Source: Sulfuriroseicoccus oceanibius (GTDB lineage Bacteria; Verrucomicrobiota; Verrucomicrobiia; Verrucomicrobiales; SLCJ01). From it: a stretch of 64,000 nt of DNA. The DNA is taken from NCBI RefSeq assembly GCF_010681825.2, contig NZ_CP066776.1, positions 1 through 64,000 on the forward strand. The letters are read 5' to 3'. Below are positions 2,396-60,239 of the stretch, piece by piece. The stretch's first letter is position 1. Every line of letters begins with the position of its first letter. Under the pieces are notes generated by a model. That model saw only the letters and a list, made by a program, of their open reading frames with translations. It was not told the DNA's origin and made no database searches. The position numbers and the translations under genes are program-made.

Positions 2396-3868
2396 ATGCT
2401 TTGGTGGAACCTCCATCTCCCCAGCAATCCATCCATCATGACCAACCCGCTCCACCTCCTAACCAAATCACTGGCTCCGGTGCCTCAGCCGATCGCATCG
2501 ACCAAGCCCAGCATGAGCAAAAACGAATGGATGCTCTATTGGCTGATTTTCGCCGGAGGCTTTCTCTTCTCGCTCTGGATCTCGCTGGCCTCAAAAGGCT
2601 TCAGCCTGGACGATGAAATCACCCACTACCTTTTCTCCCATCAGGCCTGGGGCAACCCAAAGCAGCTTCTTAACGAGTGGACTCGACCAGGACGCAACCT
2701 GATCCACTTCCCATTCGCCCTCATGCCACTGATGGCGGTGCGCGTGGTCACACTCGTCCTCGCAGCCATCGTCGTTTGGCTTGCCACAAAGCTAGCCGCC
2801 GCTTTCAACCTCAAACACCTTTGGTTGATCCCGCTCTTCATCTGGTTCGAGCCATGGTACGTCGCCCTCTCCGGTGCCGTCCTCACCCAGACGCCTTTCG
2901 CACTGGTCGCACTCATCGGCATCTATGCGCTGATCACCGGCCGCCACGGCATCTCAGGCCTGTGCTGGGGGTATCTCTCTTTAATCCGCCACGAAGGCAT
3001 CGCCTTCTCGTTGATGTTCTTTGTTTGGTTCCTCCTGCAGGGCCGATGGAAGGGTGTGGCGGGTGTCGTCGCTCCGATTGCGGTTTTCAACGTCGCCACC
3101 AAGATCTTCGCAGGTCATTGGCCGATCGCCATTTTCTTCGATTCCAAGCCGACGGAAATCTACGGCGAAGGAACCTTGTTCCACTTTGTCCCGACCACGC
3201 TTTGGTTCGCCGGGCCGATCATCGTCATTCTGGCGCTCATCGGCATTCCCCGCATGACTCGCGATTGGAAAGCTGTCTGGCCGCTGGTGGTCTACCCACT
3301 GTACTGGCTGATGCACACACTCATCTACTGGAAGGGCTTGTTCGCGTCCGGTGGTTACTATCATTTCCTCATGCCGATGGCTCCGGGCTTCGCCATCGCC
3401 GCAGCCTATGGCGTGAAAACTCTGATCGAGCTCGCAGGCGATCGCCCGAAAGTCGTGCGCGCGACCATGGTCGGCATCACCATCGCCGCCATCCTCCCCG
3501 CTGCCATCACGACGCGTCCATATCCGCGCGACCCGATGAAGAACGACCTCGACAGCGCGATGGCTTGGATCAACACCAACCGCCCCGATGCCCACACCAT
3601 CCTCTGCTGCAACATCTACTTCGACTACGCCAACCACCTGTGGGACCAGCCGAACCACAACATGCTCTACCGCAAGCCTGAGGAACAAACACCGGGAACA
3701 CTCATCGTCTGGGAATACAAGTACGCCGACATCAATGTGATCAACCGGTTCAAGCTCGACGACCTCAGCGCGCCCGACTCAGGCTGGACCCGCCACATTG
3801 CCTTCGGCTCCCAGCCGGCCGGTCCGACCGAAGGCCAACCCACCGTCGTCATCTTCGAAAAACAGTAG
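2396..3868 (+). CDS. Multi-pass membrane glycosyltransferase-like protein (GT-C type)
   Basis: A polytopic membrane protein of about 490 residues with roughly 9-11 hydrophobic segments and a soluble C-terminal part. An acidic motif SLDDEITHY follows the first membrane segment; GT-C enzymes (ArnT/PMT-like, which use polyprenyl-phosphate sugars) carry such a catalytic acidic loop there. Start choice is uncertain: ATGs at 2396, 2438 and 2513 are in frame, and the last (MSKNEWM) sits just before the first membrane segment and looks most natural. It faces a GT2 glycosyltransferase across a shared terminator; a DPM1-like enzyme would supply lipid-linked sugar to a GT-C transferase. The exact substrate cannot be told. 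Confidence 0.7.
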   Translation: MLWWNLHLPSNPSIMTNPLHLLTKSLAPVPQPIASTKPSMSKNEWMLYWLIFAGGFLFSLWISLASKGFSLDDEITHYLFSHQAWGNPKQLLNEWTRPGRNLIHFPFALMPLMAVRVVTLVLAAIVVWLATKLAAAFNLKHLWLIPLFIWFEPWYVALSGAVLTQTPFALVALIGIYALITGRHGISGLCWGYLSLIRHEGIAFSLMFFVWFLLQGRWKGVAGVVAPIAVFNVATKIFAGHWPIAIFFDSKPTEIYGEGTLFHFVPTTLWFAGPIIVILALIGIPRMTRDWKAVWPLVVYPLYWLMHTLIYWKGLFASGGYYHFLMPMAPGFAIAAAYGVKTLIELAGDRPKVVRATMVGITIAAILPAAITTRPYPRDPMKNDLDSAMAWINTNRPDAHTILCCNIYFDYANHLWDQPNHNMLYRKPEEQTPGTLIVWEYKYADINVINRFKLDDLSAPDSGWTRHIAFGSQPAGPTEGQPTVVIFEKQ

Positions 3869-4765: not shown

Positions 4766-4930
4766 AAATTTGGGAAAGGGATCGCGGGGTGTAGTTGGGG
4801 GCCAATGTTCCACGCCCCTGCCTGGATGCAACCAATTCCACGTCACGGGTCAGACGCAGTCCTTGTCCTCGCAGATGCCACCGCATCACCGCGTGCAGAA
4901 TTGATAGGCCGGTGCTACAGTGCCACCGAT

Positions 4931-6238
4931 ATGTCCGATATGTTCGAAGTGCGGGAACGCCCGCAAATGGTGGAGCGCGCGTTGCTCGTCCACGTCTACC
5001 AACACCGCCGCGATGAAGAGGAAAGCCAAAGCCTGCTCGAAGAGCTGGGCGAACTGGTCAAGACCCTCGGCATCGGCGTCGTGGATTCCGTGTTGGTTCG
5101 CGCCCCCAAAACCACCGCCCGCTACCTCATGGGCAGCGGCAAAGCGGACGAAATCATGACCCACGCCCACGCACTGGACTGCGACTGCATTGTCTTCGAC
5201 AACGAAATCTCCCCGGCCCAGCAGCGTGCATGGGAAGAAGAAAGCAAGATCTGCGTCATCGACCGCCAGGAGGTGATTCTCGACATTTTCGCCCAGCGCG
5301 CCCAGACCAAGGAAGCCACACTCCAGGTCTCGCTCGCCCGCATGCAGTACGCCCTACCGCGGATGGCTCGAATGTGGACCCACCTCGACCGTCAGGGCGG
5401 TGGCTCCGGCGGCGGCAAAGGCGGTGCCGGAGCCGCCCGTGGTGAAGGTGAAAAGCAGATCGAGGTCGACAAACGCCTCGCCCGCGAACGCATCGCACGC
5501 GTTAAAGCCGAACTCGAAGACGTTCGCAAAATCCGCATGACCCAGCGCAAGGAGCGCATGAAAACCCCGGTGCCCGTTGCCGCCATCGTCGGCTACACAA
5601 ACGCCGGCAAGTCATCTCTACTCAACCTGATGACCGACAGCGACGTCCTGGCGGAAAACAAACTCTTCGCCACCCTCGACACCACCACCCGCCGTATCGA
5701 ACTTCCAGACGGCCAGCCGCTTCTGCTCACCGACACCGTCGGCTTTGTGCGCAACCTGCCACACCGTCTGGTCGAAGCCTTCAAGGCGACTCTGGAAGAA
5801 GCCACTCTCGCCGACTTCCTCGTCCACGTCGTCGACGCATCGAGCGCGGAAGCCAAAAAGCACGGCCGCACCACGATCGAAGTATTGACCGAACTCGGGG
5901 CCGAGGAAAAACAGATAATCACCGTCCTCAACAAGATCGACTGCGTTGAGGACCAGGACCGCCTCAACGAACTCAAGTCCGAGTTCCCGAATGCCGTGCT
6001 CATGTCGGTGAAGGAGCATATCGGCGTCGATGACCTCGTCGCCCGCATGAACCAAATGCTCCACGACCGCGTCGTCCGCGCCGACTACCGGGTACCCGCC
6101 TACCGCGGCGACATCATCGCCCGCCTCCACTCGGATGCCAAGGTGCTCAAACTCGACTACGACGAAGCCGATGCCGTGATCACCGCAGTGGTCCCGAAGC
6201 AGCTCGAAAGCTTCTTCGACGAGTTCAGGGTGAGGTAG
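4931..6238 (+). CDS. hflX: GTPase HflX (ribosome-associated)
   Basis: The 435-residue protein starts at MSDMFEVRE (4931); the open frame upstream is the antisense shadow of the neighbouring gene. HflX binds the 50S subunit, splits stalled or hibernating ribosomes and hydrolyses GTP. The N-terminal HflX domain is followed by a Gly-rich linker (GGGSGGGKGGAGAARGEGE) and helical arm, then a G domain with G1 GYTNAGKSS, G3 DTVGF and G4 NKID. A C-terminal extension of about 60 residues follows. The gene is divergent from the GT2 gene and convergent with the zinc-ribbon gene downstream. Confidence 0.95.
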   Translation: MSDMFEVRERPQMVERALLVHVYQHRRDEEESQSLLEELGELVKTLGIGVVDSVLVRAPKTTARYLMGSGKADEIMTHAHALDCDCIVFDNEISPAQQRAWEEESKICVIDRQEVILDIFAQRAQTKEATLQVSLARMQYALPRMARMWTHLDRQGGGSGGGKGGAGAARGEGEKQIEVDKRLARERIARVKAELEDVRKIRMTQRKERMKTPVPVAAIVGYTNAGKSSLLNLMTDSDVLAENKLFATLDTTTRRIELPDGQPLLLTDTVGFVRNLPHRLVEAFKATLEEATLADFLVHVVDASSAEAKKHGRTTIEVLTELGAEEKQIITVLNKIDCVEDQDRLNELKSEFPNAVLMSVKEHIGVDDLVARMNQMLHDRVVRADYRVPAYRGDIIARLHSDAKVLKLDYDEADAVITAVVPKQLESFFDEFRVR

Positions 6239-53791: not shown

Positions 53792-53849
53792 AAACCGAGC
53801 TTGCCAGCGCCGCAGCCTCAGCTCGCGACGCCGGCATCAATGAGATCGA

Positions 53850-54713
53850 TTAGGACGCTCCGGCCAATTCCTTGGCACGTTGCTGGCTTTTCTCGGAAAG
53901 CTTGGAGATATCAAAGGTCACCGTCCGCCCATTCTCCATCACCAAGGTGATGCGGTTGCCACTGAGCGACTGGAACTTGGCGGTGATCGTTTTCCCACCC
54001 TCCGCGCTTACCCACGATTCCATCACCGGCACCTCAGGCTCGGCAGAGATCTCGGCTCCCCCCCCAGCCATCATCCTGGCCGCTCTCTGCGCCCCTGAAA
54101 CCAGCTTATCAAGGGGAACGGACATCTCGGTGCCGTTATCCTGCCGCTTGAGCACCATGGACTGACCGTCTTCGCTCAGCCGAACAAACGTTCCAAGGTA
54201 GACGTTGCCCGGGCCGAGAAGTTGCCAGGCATTGGCATACTGGTAGGGCTTTTGATCCAACTCTCCATCCAGCCCCTGCTTCACTAGCTTACGGACGCGG
54301 GAGAACTCCTTCGAGCCCTTCATATCCGCATACTTGCTGCTGGCAAACCACAAACTTTGGTCAGCAGAAACGATCACAGCTTTGGGAATCGTATGACCAA
54401 GCGACTTGTCCCGAAACCGTCCGACGACCACAGGTGAAACCTCCTGATACCGGACCTTGGCTTTGCTACTGATATAGACCACCACCGAATGACGGCGGAA
54501 ATTCTTGAAGGCTGCCAAACTGGCAGCGTTGCATGGGCCTCAACTAGACGTTTCGTCAGTGAGCACGAATGCGAGCGCCTTGCCCTTTTCCTTGGCCTCG
54601 GCAATGGCTTCATCGAGCTGCTTCTCGCGGTAGACGTGCCGCGGCATTTCGAACCCGGCTTGAGCGCACACAGCGGCCGCCAGCAGGGCAATGACGGTTT
54701 GTTTGATCTTCAT
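53850..54713 (-). CDS. Secreted thioredoxin-like/SHD1 protein with in-frame TGA at the CGPC motif (candidate selenoprotein)
   Basis: The ATG at 54713 opens a signal peptide (MKIKQTVIALLAAA, cleavage near AQAG). The frame runs through DEAIAEAKEKGKALAFVL to DETSS, then TGA (54542-54540), then GPCNAASLAAFKNFRR and on in the same frame to 53850, 287 residues in all if TGA is decoded. The TGA takes the place of the first Cys of the CGPC redox motif (residue 58), and TIPKAVIV supplies the cis-Pro of a thioredoxin fold. Two SHD1-like beta domains follow; the second (GKTITAKFQSLSGNRITLV...ISKLSEKSQ) is clear. A hairpin fitting a bacterial SECIS follows the TGA. The alternative is a recent nonsense mutation. 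If no recoding occurs, only a 222-residue remnant could be made from internal starts. Confidence 0.7.
54511..54542 (-). other. Candidate bacterial SECIS element downstream of in-frame TGA
   Basis: On the minus strand the TGA is followed by 12 nt and then GCTGCCA-GTT-TGGCAGC, a perfect 7-bp stem (54527-54511) with an apical loop starting with G. The loop begins 19 nt after the TGA. As I recall the bacterial SECIS model, it asks for a small stem-loop about 16-37 nt after UGA with a G in the first two loop positions; this fits. Confidence 0.65.
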
Positions 54714-54973
54714 AGAACGCTGGTATGAACACGGCGCTAGATCAACACAAGCCGAAAGCTGGGATCATGCGAAAATTGGAAAGACCAACAGACACCAACC
54801 CGTCCTCGGCAAGCACCCAAATCATGACCATCCACGGCTGGTCATGGACAATCACCCAAAAAGCACCGTAATTACCTCAGTCCGAGGCTTGCCATCGCCC
54901 CGCACAATCAATCAACGTTTGGATTGCACGCTACCGGCAGTGCCTCCATGCTGCCCCCGATTTTTCGCCACCC

Positions 54974-57127
54974 ATGAGCCAGATTATCACCATCGGATTC
55001 GACGAACTTCCATCCCACGGGGCACTCATCCTGCCCAACCGCCTGGAGTTTTCCCACCTCCTCCACCTGGAGAAGGAGCTCAGTGGCCGCCAGATCCTGT
55101 ACTTGGCAGAGGACGGAGGCGCTTACGACGGACTGACTCAAACCCACCTTGAAAAGGAAGGCACCGACGCCGTGGCATTCGCCATCGACGAACCCGCACC
55201 GGAAGAACTCCTGCAGATCGTAGGCGATCACATCAAAGCCGGTGGTATGGCGGTATTCGTGCCGGGCAAGGTCACCGAACGCCGAGCCACCACCCAGACC
55301 GTGCGCCCACAGGCTCTGGAGGTCCTCACCAGCCTCAATGTGCCGGTCATTCCAGCGTTCGTCGAAACCCCGCGCAACACAGTGCTCGCCACCGAGTCCA
55401 CCGACGACTACCCCGAGGCCATCCTCGTGCTCGGAGAAGAAATCCCGGCCGACAAGGCATCCCCCGCAGCGTTCCTCGAGAATGTCTACATCAGCGGAGA
55501 GGCCGCCTACGCCACGCTGCCCGTACTCAAAAAGAACCTGGCACGCGTCCTCCTCGAAGGACTCAAGCGCCACGCCAACAACGCCGGACTCATCGACGGC
55601 ATGGACGGGTCCGAACTCGCCTACGGCCGCATCCTCGCAGCATCACTCGCTCTGGCAGGTGAGCTGAAGAAGCAGACGCAAAAAGAACGCGTCGCCATCA
55701 TTCTACCTCCAGGCCGCGCCGGACTCATCGCCAACCTGGCGGTCGTCTTTGCCAACAAAGTCCCGGTGAACTTGAACTTCACCGCCGGAGCAGGTGCCGT
55801 GGAGTCTGCCATCCGCCAAGCCGATGTCGATAAGTTCATCACGGTGGATAAGTTCGTGCGCAAAATGCAGGCGTTCCCGTGGCCTCCAACCCGCGACCTC
55901 ATTTTCCTCGAGCGCCTGCTTCCATCGCTCAAAGGGTCGATGACCCGCTGGTTCATCGCCAGCAAGTTCCTCTCGGCCGAGTTCATCGCCAACCGTCTGC
56001 AGCTGCCGAAAAAGGGTGGCGACCGCGAGGCCGTGCTGCTCTTCACCAGCGGCTCGTCCGGTGAACCCAAAGGCGTGGCGCTCAGCCACCGCAATGTGTT
56101 GGCCAACGTGAACCAATTCGGTGCGCGTCTCGACCTCCATCACGAAGACTCCGTTTTGGGCTGCCTGCCGCTCTTCCATAGTTTTGGCTGCACGGTGACG
56201 CTGTGGTACCCGGTGATCGAAGGCCTGACGCTGGTGACCTATCCGTCCCCGGCCGAGACGGTGAAGCTCGCCGAATTGATCGAGCAACACAAAGTCAGCC
56301 TGCTGGTGGCGACTCCGACCTTCCTCCGTGGCTACCTCCGCCGCGCCAAGCCAGAGCAACTTGAGTCGCTCAAGCTGGTCGTGACCGGAGCGGAAAAGCT
56401 GCCCGCCACGTTGCGTGAATCCTTCGCCAAGCGCTTCGGCAAAGAAGTTCTGGAAGGCTACGGACTGACCGAGACCTCACCGGTCACCAACGTCAACCTG
56501 CCAGACCCGACGCCAAAGCCCGATGACCAGGACCTCCCAGTGCTCCCAACCGCACGCGCAGGCTCGGTCGGCCACATGGTGCAAGGTCTCGCCATCCGCA
56601 TCACCGATCCCGCCACCGACGAACCGCTCCCGATCGACCAACCGGGCATCATTTGGTTCAAAGGCGCCAATGTCTTCGGCGGCTACCTCAACAAACCGGA
56701 AACCAACGCGGAGATCCTACAAGACGGGTGGCTGCGTACCGGCGATATCGGCCGCCTCGACCACGACGGCTTCCTCTACATCGAAGGACGCCTCTCACGC
56801 TTCTCAAAAATCGGCGGAGAAATGGTACCTCACGAACGTGTCGAAGAACTCATCGTTCAAGCACTCGGACTCGAGAACCAGGACGAACGCTGCGTCACCG
56901 TCGTCGGCCTGCCGGACGAACAAAAAGGCGAGCAACTGGTGCTGCTTTCCACCGTTTCAGCCGGCAACCCGGGGCAGGAAATCATCGACCTTCGCTACCG
57001 CCTGCTGGAAATGAAAGTGCCATCACTCTGGATCCCGAAAACCATGATCCCCGTCAACGAGATCCCATTGCTGGCATCCGGCAAACTCGACATCCGCGGC
57101 TGCGAAGCTAAAGCCAAGGGCGAATAA
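54974..57127 (+). CDS. Aas-like protein: degenerate acyltransferase fused to acyl-ACP/acyl-CoA synthetase
   Basis: The 717-residue protein has an N-terminal PlsC-like region of about 200 residues whose catalytic HX4D motif seems replaced (PNRLEFSHLLHLE), then an AMP-binding domain: LLFTSGSSGEPKGVALSH near 356, EGYGLTETSP near 496, TGDIGR and the C-terminal lid Lys in ASGKLDIRG. It would activate fatty acids with ATP, probably onto ACP, for phospholipid repair as in Aas. The acyltransfer half may be inactive or altered. It starts 260 bp from the divergent thioredoxin-like gene and is followed by the MidA-like gene 45 bp downstream. Confidence 0.85.
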   Translation: MSQIITIGFDELPSHGALILPNRLEFSHLLHLEKELSGRQILYLAEDGGAYDGLTQTHLEKEGTDAVAFAIDEPAPEELLQIVGDHIKAGGMAVFVPGKVTERRATTQTVRPQALEVLTSLNVPVIPAFVETPRNTVLATESTDDYPEAILVLGEEIPADKASPAAFLENVYISGEAAYATLPVLKKNLARVLLEGLKRHANNAGLIDGMDGSELAYGRILAASLALAGELKKQTQKERVAIILPPGRAGLIANLAVVFANKVPVNLNFTAGAGAVESAIRQADVDKFITVDKFVRKMQAFPWPPTRDLIFLERLLPSLKGSMTRWFIASKFLSAEFIANRLQLPKKGGDREAVLLFTSGSSGEPKGVALSHRNVLANVNQFGARLDLHHEDSVLGCLPLFHSFGCTVTLWYPVIEGLTLVTYPSPAETVKLAELIEQHKVSLLVATPTFLRGYLRRAKPEQLESLKLVVTGAEKLPATLRESFAKRFGKEVLEGYGLTETSPVTNVNLPDPTPKPDDQDLPVLPTARAGSVGHMVQGLAIRITDPATDEPLPIDQPGIIWFKGANVFGGYLNKPETNAEILQDGWLRTGDIGRLDHDGFLYIEGRLSRFSKIGGEMVPHERVEELIVQALGLENQDERCVTVVGLPDEQKGEQLVLLSTVSAGNPGQEIIDLRYRLLEMKVPSLWIPKTMIPVNEIPLLASGKLDIRGCEAKAKGE

Positions 57128-58705: not shown

Positions 58706-59986
58706 TCAGAACTGGCTACCCCACACTCGTTTGACTAGATTCTTCAGCGTGTAATGCGCCTCGTCGGCAATCCGACCATCTCCCCTCGGATCACGCATTT
58801 TTGTCGCGAACGTTTTCCTTCGCGGCGAGAAACACTCCGCATACCGCTCATGCGCGTGCTCGACGAACGACTTCGTCCCAATCACCACGCTATCACTGAA
58901 GTAACGTGTGCGACGCAGCAAATACTTCGTCACTCCCGGCTGCTCCGAATCCACCTCGGGACGCCCCGCTCGAACCAACAAACGCTGCTCGCGTGTCGCC
59001 TCTCCTCTTTCCACTGCCGACCTCGCCTCCTCATAGCGCGCCGCCAACTCCCTCTCAATCACATAGGCGATCAACTTACGGTACGTTTCTCGCGCCCTGT
59101 CATCACCTCGCTCCCAGCTATCCACCGGGCAATCCACCGCCTTGCAGATCCCGCGGCGTGCACGCCTACTCCCACCAACTTCGGCCTCGGCCCAGCCACA
59201 CCAACGATACGCCACCGGATCATCCACCAGCCCTGCTCGCACCGGGTTCAGTTCAATATAGAGCGCCACGTTGCGCATCGCCTCATCACTGCCGATCAGC
59301 ACACTCTTGAAGCGCGACATCCACAACGTCCCTCTGCGCTCATGACGCTTGTTATACCATCTGGTGAAACGCACTTTCACCGCGTTCATAAAGCGTGAAA
59401 TGTCGCACATCCGCGCCAGCATCCGTTCGATCAGCTCAGCCCGCGCCTTCTCCTGACCACGCTCACCCAGCCGCTTCAACTGCTGGGCAAATTCATCCAC
59501 CGCGTTCCGCGAGTACAGGCAGCTGATATGTTTGAGCAGCAGCTCTTCTCCGCCCGGCTCACGGAACTTTGCCAATGCCTTCTCCGCGTCCGGCACCACG
59601 GCCAACACGTGGAAATGGTTCCCCATCACCGCATAGGTCACCACCCGCACCATCGAGAACCTCGCCATCTTCCAGATCAGCTTCTTCAGAGCCTCCTTCT
59701 CCACATCATCGAAGAACACCTCGCCCCCAACCGTGCGGCTCATCACATGATAACAGGCATCCTCACCTTTCTCCCCCAGCATCCGCTTCTGCGGGCGCCT
59801 CAAATTCACCACATTCCCCTCCAGATCCTCGCTCACACCCCACCATCCTGCGCCAACATGCGCCGCCGTTTTCGCTTCAATCGCAACCAGCGCCTCCCGC
59901 GCCGCAGCACCCATACTTCCGAGCTTTTTCGCCGCTTTCATACCACCCGATACGCCGCCAACCAGCGTGTCGGACTCACTTGACAC
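58706..59986 (-). CDS. REP-associated tyrosine transposase (RAYT, Y1 family)
   Basis: The 426-residue protein starts at GTG 59986 (read MSSESDTL). Y1 transposase features: CYHVMSRTVGGEVFF strand, the HUH motif in AVMGNHFHVLAVVP, and the catalytic Tyr in FTRWYNKRHERRGTLW, followed by ELNPVRAGL. A C-terminal part of about 140 residues (YFSDSVVIGTKSFVE) is typical of the long verrucomicrobial forms. RAYTs process single-stranded REP hairpins and are thought to spread them. It lies between two family A repeats in direct orientation, the likely substrates. Confidence 0.9.
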   Translation of the reverse strand: MSSESDTLVGGVSGGMKAAKKLGSMGAAAREALVAIEAKTAAHVGAGWWGVSEDLEGNVVNLRRPQKRMLGEKGEDACYHVMSRTVGGEVFFDDVEKEALKKLIWKMARFSMVRVVTYAVMGNHFHVLAVVPDAEKALAKFREPGGEELLLKHISCLYSRNAVDEFAQQLKRLGERGQEKARAELIERMLARMCDISRFMNAVKVRFTRWYNKRHERRGTLWMSRFKSVLIGSDEAMRNVALYIELNPVRAGLVDDPVAYRWCGWAEAEVGGSRRARRGICKAVDCPVDSWERGDDRARETYRKLIAYVIERELAARYEEARSAVERGEATREQRLLVRAGRPEVDSEQPGVTKYLLRRTRYFSDSVVIGTKSFVEHAHERYAECFSPRRKTFATKMRDPRGDGRIADEAHYTLKNLVKRVWGSQF

Positions 59987-60239
59987 CTGCAGTCATTTTG
60001 CCCCAGCCAACTCCCGCCTCAGTCCAGCCACACCAACGAGACGCCACCGGATTCAGATCAATGTAAAGCGCCACGTTGCGCATCGCCTCATCGCTGCCGA
60101 TCAGCACACTCTTGAAGCGCGACATCCACAACGTCCCTCTGCGCTCATGACGTTTGTGATACCACCTGGTGAATCGCACTTTCACCCCGTTCATAAAGCG
60201 TGAAAAGTCGCACATCCGCGCCAGGGACTCACTTGACAA
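59976..60239 (-). pseudogene. Internally deleted tandem copy of the RAYT gene
   Basis: An 87-codon frame begins TTG-TCA-AGT-GAG-TCC (same MSSES start region as the full copy), jumps to LARMCDFSRFMN (residue about 187 of the full gene), keeps the catalytic Tyr block and the SRFKSVLIGSDEAMRNVALYI stretch in two pieces, then lacks about 14 residues after LNPV. The HUH motif is gone, so it cannot be active. It joins directly to the start of the intact gene, as expected of a tandem duplication with internal loss. Confidence 0.85.

Follow-up and report, generated by a model that had tools for sequence, protein, structure and literature searches.

The window analysed here is a stretch of 64,000 nucleotides from the genome of Sulfuriroseicoccus oceanibius. 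On its minus strand lies a frame of 287 codons, which starts with an ATG at 54713, ends with a TAA at 53850-53852 and is interrupted by a TGA at codon 58. The question raised by this locus is whether that TGA terminates translation or is read as selenocysteine (Sec). The features of the gene are listed below.

53850..54713, minus strand: putative selenoprotein gene of 287 codons and a stop codon; the TGA at codon 58 is taken as Sec
54657..54713, minus strand: probable signal peptide, residues 1-19, MKIKQTVIALLAAAVCAQA (direct reading of the sequence, no signal-peptide program)
54264..54653, minus strand: thioredoxin-like domain, residues 21-150, with the cis-Pro place at Ile109-Pro110 (predicted structure)
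54540..54542, minus strand: TGA (Sec) codon 58, the sole in-frame TGA, in the context TDETSS-U-GPC
54531..54542, minus strand: codons of the UGPC redox motif, residues 58-61
54511..54527, minus strand: SECIS hairpin GCTGCCA-GTT-TGGCAGC, a perfect 7-bp stem with the loop GTT at 54520-54518
54066..54236, minus strand: first SHD1-like beta domain, residues 160-216 (rests on the predicted structure alone and is less well supported than the second)
53859..54029, minus strand: second SHD1-like domain, residues 229-285 (2hbp, Z 8.5)

The sequence-only reading had proposed a selenoprotein on the basis of a single TGA in an otherwise open frame of 287 codons, the position of that TGA at the first Cys of a CGPC motif, and a 7-bp stem with a G-first 3-nt loop 12 nt from the TGA. 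These observations held: the coordinates were confirmed, the motif is UGPC at codon 58, and the hairpin is as described. Its expectation that a simple pipeline would call only a truncated protein of 222 residues was also borne out, as a mechanical ORF finder returned a truncated 222-aa frame starting from a TTG at 54518. The selenoprotein reading as a whole was supported, and every refutation test that could be run came out in its favour.

Reading frame and selenocysteine-decoding machinery

TGA terminates 13 of the 31 long frames in the window and is thus a normal stop in S. oceanibius; on this ground, a general reassignment of TGA was rejected. The single-contig 3.5-Mb genome carries selA, selB, selC (tRNA-Sec) and selD. 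SelA was matched with 376 bits and SelB with 306 bits (cut-off 242), while the tRNA-Sec gene scored 65.8 bits and was given the anticodon tca by ARAGORN. The absence of these genes had been named as a refutation of the selenoprotein reading; all four are present, and the refutation failed. The selD gene, next to that of tRNA-Sec, itself contains a TGA in the catalytic Sec loop (SSCAG-U-ASKLG), a known Sec site.

L014, about 4919-6045 (genome contig C1 near 1189918-1191045), minus strand in L014: selD, with the tRNA-Sec gene directly upstream

Like the window gene, selD combines a UGA at the catalytic site with a downstream hairpin whose loop is GTT, although SelD is an unrelated enzyme and its hairpin lies further off (33 nt). 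The mechanical ORF list included only the part of selD after its TGA. Directly downstream of selA there is a phosphonate-type ABC transporter (L013 3564-7335, minus strand), whose genes we take, by our own reading, to encode a phosphonate-type binding protein, an ATPase and two permeases.

We examined the sequence past the TGA in homologous genes. Between close homologues, third codon positions account for most of the differences past the TGA (5, 7 and 31 at positions 1, 2 and 3 in one example), and the frames after the TGA stay open over about 170-230 codons. From this selection on the sequence we infer that the region after the TGA is translated and under purifying selection. The third-position bias and the open frames together rule out decay and sequencing error. 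Of the two further refuting cases that had been foreseen, gene decay is ruled out by the intact frames under constraint past the TGA, and a misread TGC or TGT is excluded by more than 50 separate TGA copies at the same codon.

One observation concerns the window outside this gene. At 58706-59986 (minus strand) stands a gene that we take, naming it from our own reading, to be a REP-associated-type transposase, and right upstream of it a short second frame (59976-60239, minus strand) matches its middle part. The short frame is inferred, from sequence alone, to be a partial duplication of the transposase gene.

A proposed Sec/Cys family with a conserved hairpin

When 388 genomes of the phylum were searched, a different family of the order proved to hold a protein of 37% identity whose TGA stands at the equivalent position; elsewhere, Cys forms were found. 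An early scan of genome contigs with peptide stretches of the window protein had found no relatives, because the stretches used were not conserved. A profile run against 387 genomes of the order found the family in 162, and TGA-bearing homologues in at least 66. All 52 distinct TGA copies that were mapped have the TGA at one alignment column, that of Cys58, where nearly all other homologues have Cys; the proposed check of residue 58 for Cys or TGA was thus met by nearly all homologues. The genome counts rest on the best-scoring matches, and the shared column on the mapped copies. A family of this size, with Sec and Cys forms, goes beyond what the sequence-only reading could see.

The presence of TGA follows that of the decoding machinery. 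SelA was detected in 120 of the 387 genomes; where the best-scoring matches include a TGA copy, 61 of 66 genomes have it, versus 2 of 41 where those matches are all stop-free (Fisher 3e-21). The five TGA genomes without detected SelA are all drafts, and three of them have a tRNA-Sec over the cut-off. In a different family of the class, the two genomes with a TGA copy likewise have SelA, and a genus within the order of S. oceanibius in which no SelA was detected (g2) carries Cys forms. When a DNA pattern of UGPC plus hairpin was run against 84,980 genomes, all 28 matches were Verrucomicrobiota by record title, among them the cultured Roseibacillus ishigakijimensis (KCTC 12986), whose copy of the gene occupies 3178-3858 on the minus strand of L136.

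The hairpin itself was compared with published criteria for bacterial SECIS elements (PMC13188914), which call for a loop of 3-9 nt, a stem of 4-16 bp, a gap of 16-37 nt, a G in the first two loop positions and an energy of -7.5 or lower. The window hairpin satisfies them: it begins 12 nt past the TGA, its 3-nt GTT loop begins after a gap of 19 nt, and the computed energy is -10.5 for the isolated stem and -13.1 over 45 nt. An Rfam search of 53800-55000 gave chance matches only and no SECIS family. About 5% of synonymous recodings of the window protein yield a comparable hairpin at that place. Taken alone, the hairpin is therefore weak evidence, and the argument that chance could hardly have placed it there was weaker than claimed.

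Comparison across the family turns the hairpin into strong evidence. In 44 distinct TGA copies with equal TGA-hairpin spacing, 5.27 of 6 stem positions pair, versus 4.10 +/- 0.11 (maximum 4.48) in 2000 synonymous-codon shuffles, and the loop opens with GU in 43 of the 44. Six of the seven pairs change on both sides (31 covarying cells versus 10 +/- 2.7), and sliding the stem drops the paired cells to at most 52%. The Cys homologues, in contrast, have a stem pairing score of 2.9: the hairpin that follows the TGA is kept in TGA copies and not in Cys copies. A covariance model built without the window scored the window site at 56.9 bits, with the next match at 12.3; it also found the distant TGA copies L163 and L166, and no Cys homologue reached E 0.01 with it. 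The UGA and the coding letters contribute to these scores. Some family hairpins contain a 1x1 mismatch, and in the UPTC/UATC subfamily (L121, L123, L124, L126 and the second copy of L073) the hairpin lies one codon further from the UGA, with a spacing of 22 nt in most. These results show that the TGA copies conserve the hairpin as an RNA element.

The active-site motif takes the forms UGPC, UPTC, UHAC, USLC and UGST, besides the two-Sec forms UxxxxU and UxxU. Some homologues have no second Cys (UGST) and a few copies have neither Sec nor Cys, so the chemistry may differ between subfamilies. In a tree of 70 N-domains, the Sec/Cys labels can be explained only by three or more changes on well-supported branches, with a total of about five; since the root is not known, the direction of these changes is not shown. 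Tandem paralogues occur in L073/L125, L074/L097, L083/L113, L084/L114 and L109; L109 has three adjacent copies, one with Sec, one with Cys and one lacking both. Two-Sec paralogues were seen in L117, L118 and L119, where an extra TGA stands five codons before the site (UxxxxUGST), and in L120, where it stands three codons before (UxxU). In these forms the distance to the single hairpin is 28-34 nt from the first UGA and 19 nt from the second, and this one hairpin could possibly serve both. The gene neighbourhood is common only to close relatives; it revealed no functional partner and no conserved neighbour that points to a substrate.

Protein architecture and relation to known systems

A structure model computed from 24 sequences (pLDDT 84.9) predicts a thioredoxin fold followed by two small beta domains. 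Sec58 lies at the start of a helix (residues 59-72) and Ile-Pro 109-110 at the cis-Pro place; U/C58, C61, I109 and P110 are invariant positions. Residues 21-150 of the model resemble solved structures of DsbH-type proteins and thioredoxins with Z 8-10, and the SHD1 domain of Sla1 (2hbp) matches residues 229-287 with Z 8.5 and rmsd 1.7 over 59 residues. The SHD1 Pfam score of the window protein (15.9 bits) is below the gathering cut-off of 23.7, and 2 of 24 members match that model at E up to 0.1, the best at 1.4e-4. The SHD1-like domains named by the sequence-only reading were thus upheld by fold, with a Pfam score below cut-off; its signal peptide is kept as probable, by direct reading only. 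From the N-terminus alone we infer that the window protein is very likely exported. A single SHD1-like domain is the rule in most homologues; there are two in the window protein and in L130, and the C-terminal part differs in L148, L163 and L166.

Several other matches were rejected. Those to Pfam PGG and DUF2442 were below cut-off, that of the window protein to NCBIfam MnmH (E 0.079) was far below it, and Foldseek matches to Tudor domains (53BP1, SETDB1) had an rmsd of 14 and arose because two small beta barrels stand in a row. A sequence search of the PDB gave nothing significant.

The way in which this UGA would be decoded is already known; the family itself is read as new. Bacterial UxxC thioredoxin-fold selenoproteins (PMC13188914), listed as Sec-Trx, the PF13098 thiol:disulfide interchange proteins, SaoT and HUIPC, likewise have Sec first in UxxC and a SECIS right after the UGA, and the window protein would share their dependence on SelA, SelB and SelD; it differs from them in its signal peptide and C-terminal SHD1-like domains. 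The best structural matches include 7tkv (Z 10.0), 3f9u (Z 9.4) and 2ju5 (Z 8.7), and many thioredoxins score alike. DsbH-type oxidoreductases (2ju5, 7tkv, 3f9u) are exported thioredoxin-fold proteins with a CxxC-type site, as here, but they have Cys in place of Sec and are only 8-17% identical in sequence. To our knowledge, no SHD1 domain occurs in DsbH-type proteins; SHD1 (PF03983) of yeast Sla1 binds NPFxD peptides in endocytosis. The closest catalogue entry by description is GOS_C of marine metagenomes (PMC2398784), which is the Omp28_seleno model NF045500 and combines UxxC with a thioredoxin-like fold. NF045500 had no match in the window genome or in genomes G379, G523 and G506, and in the remaining genomes tested its matches were no better than E 0.17 and lay elsewhere.

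No Pfam or NCBIfam model (June 2026) matched the window protein over its cut-off. A 2026 review of prokaryotic selenoproteins, which covers 119 families and does not mention Verrucomicrobia, has none with clearly this architecture, and literature searches, outside whose scope subscription papers and preprints fell, found no paper describing the family. We consider it very likely that this is a real selenoprotein of a large family absent from the catalogues checked; no comparison was made with the 2008 GOS 'Trx-like 3' reads (cd02950-like, PMC2398784), and priority is not fully settled. With less assurance, we lean towards a bolder reading, in which this is a large, lineage-bound and unrecorded Verrucomicrobiota family that includes two-Sec forms where a single hairpin could serve both UGAs.

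Alternative explanations and proposed role

The alternative that survives best concerns the reaction rather than the decoding: the selenoprotein may be mainly a peroxidase, a methionine sulfoxide reductase or a metal-binding protein. Sec often serves peroxide reduction, some paralogues have UGST without the second Cys, and two members show remote similarity to the Redoxin Pfam model (E 0.017). Against this, the window protein has the full UxxC and the cis-Pro place, and its structural neighbours are DsbH-type proteins and thioredoxins. We hold this alternative to be possible but clearly the less probable one.

The next two alternatives deny Sec insertion, and both are very unlikely. In one, the UGA is a true stop and the later part is a separate gene with an internal TTG start, as the ORF finder suggests with its 222-aa frame in the window and a 166-aa TTG frame in G379. 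However, the two genomes have this TTG at different codons, and in the window it falls inside a hairpin arm; a start there would cut the thioredoxin fold after the start of the active-site helix, and the TGA is tied to the presence of SelA. In the other, the UGA is read as Trp or Cys by a near-cognate tRNA or under a changed code. Low-level read-through of UGA by Trp-tRNA is common in bacteria, but this genome uses TGA as an ordinary stop, the codon falls on the catalytic Cys column, SelA and tRNA-Sec accompany the TGA, and the hairpin fits recognition by SelB. A pseudogene or sequencing error, with the TGA as a nonsense change or misread TGC/TGT in a Cys thioredoxin-like gene, has in its favour only the single base between these codons and the existence of Cys homologues, and is all but excluded by the 52 mapped copies from many genomes, nearly all with SelA, by purifying selection past the TGA, and by the hairpin that TGA copies conserve and Cys copies do not.

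We therefore return to Sec as the reading of UGA58. Its actual insertion is very likely, as inferred from sequence analysis without selenium or peptide data, and the gene very likely encodes an exported selenoprotein with a UGPC thioredoxin-fold site, whose selenium content and activity are inferred. In the proposed mechanism, SelA and SelD would make Sec-tRNA, and SelB would carry it and dock on the stem-loop after UGA58, so that the ribosome reads this codon as selenocysteine; without docking, ribosomes would stop at codon 58. The signal peptide would take the protein out of the cytoplasm. Its predicted fold is a thioredoxin-like domain that carries the active site Sec58-Gly-Pro-Cys61, with two SHD1-like domains behind it. 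Sec58 would most likely attack disulfides (or peroxides) of envelope substrates and Cys61 would resolve the intermediate, while the SHD1-like domains would probably hold partners or position the enzyme; attack, resolution and partner binding are all inferred. The type of reaction is the least certain step. We favour a disulfide reductase or isomerase, cautiously, as an inference without activity or substrate data.

The size of the family, its domain plan and its two-Sec forms are the main points of interest. It would add a widespread exported family, with R. ishigakijimensis as one cultured host, to the prokaryotic selenoproteome; by the logic of the ORF finder, annotation would fragment or miss its genes. 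The two-Sec forms offer a direct test of one SECIS decoding two UGAs. The natural Sec/Cys swaps, the lineages that lose Sec, and the tandem Sec and Cys paralogues provide material on why an envelope enzyme needs selenium.
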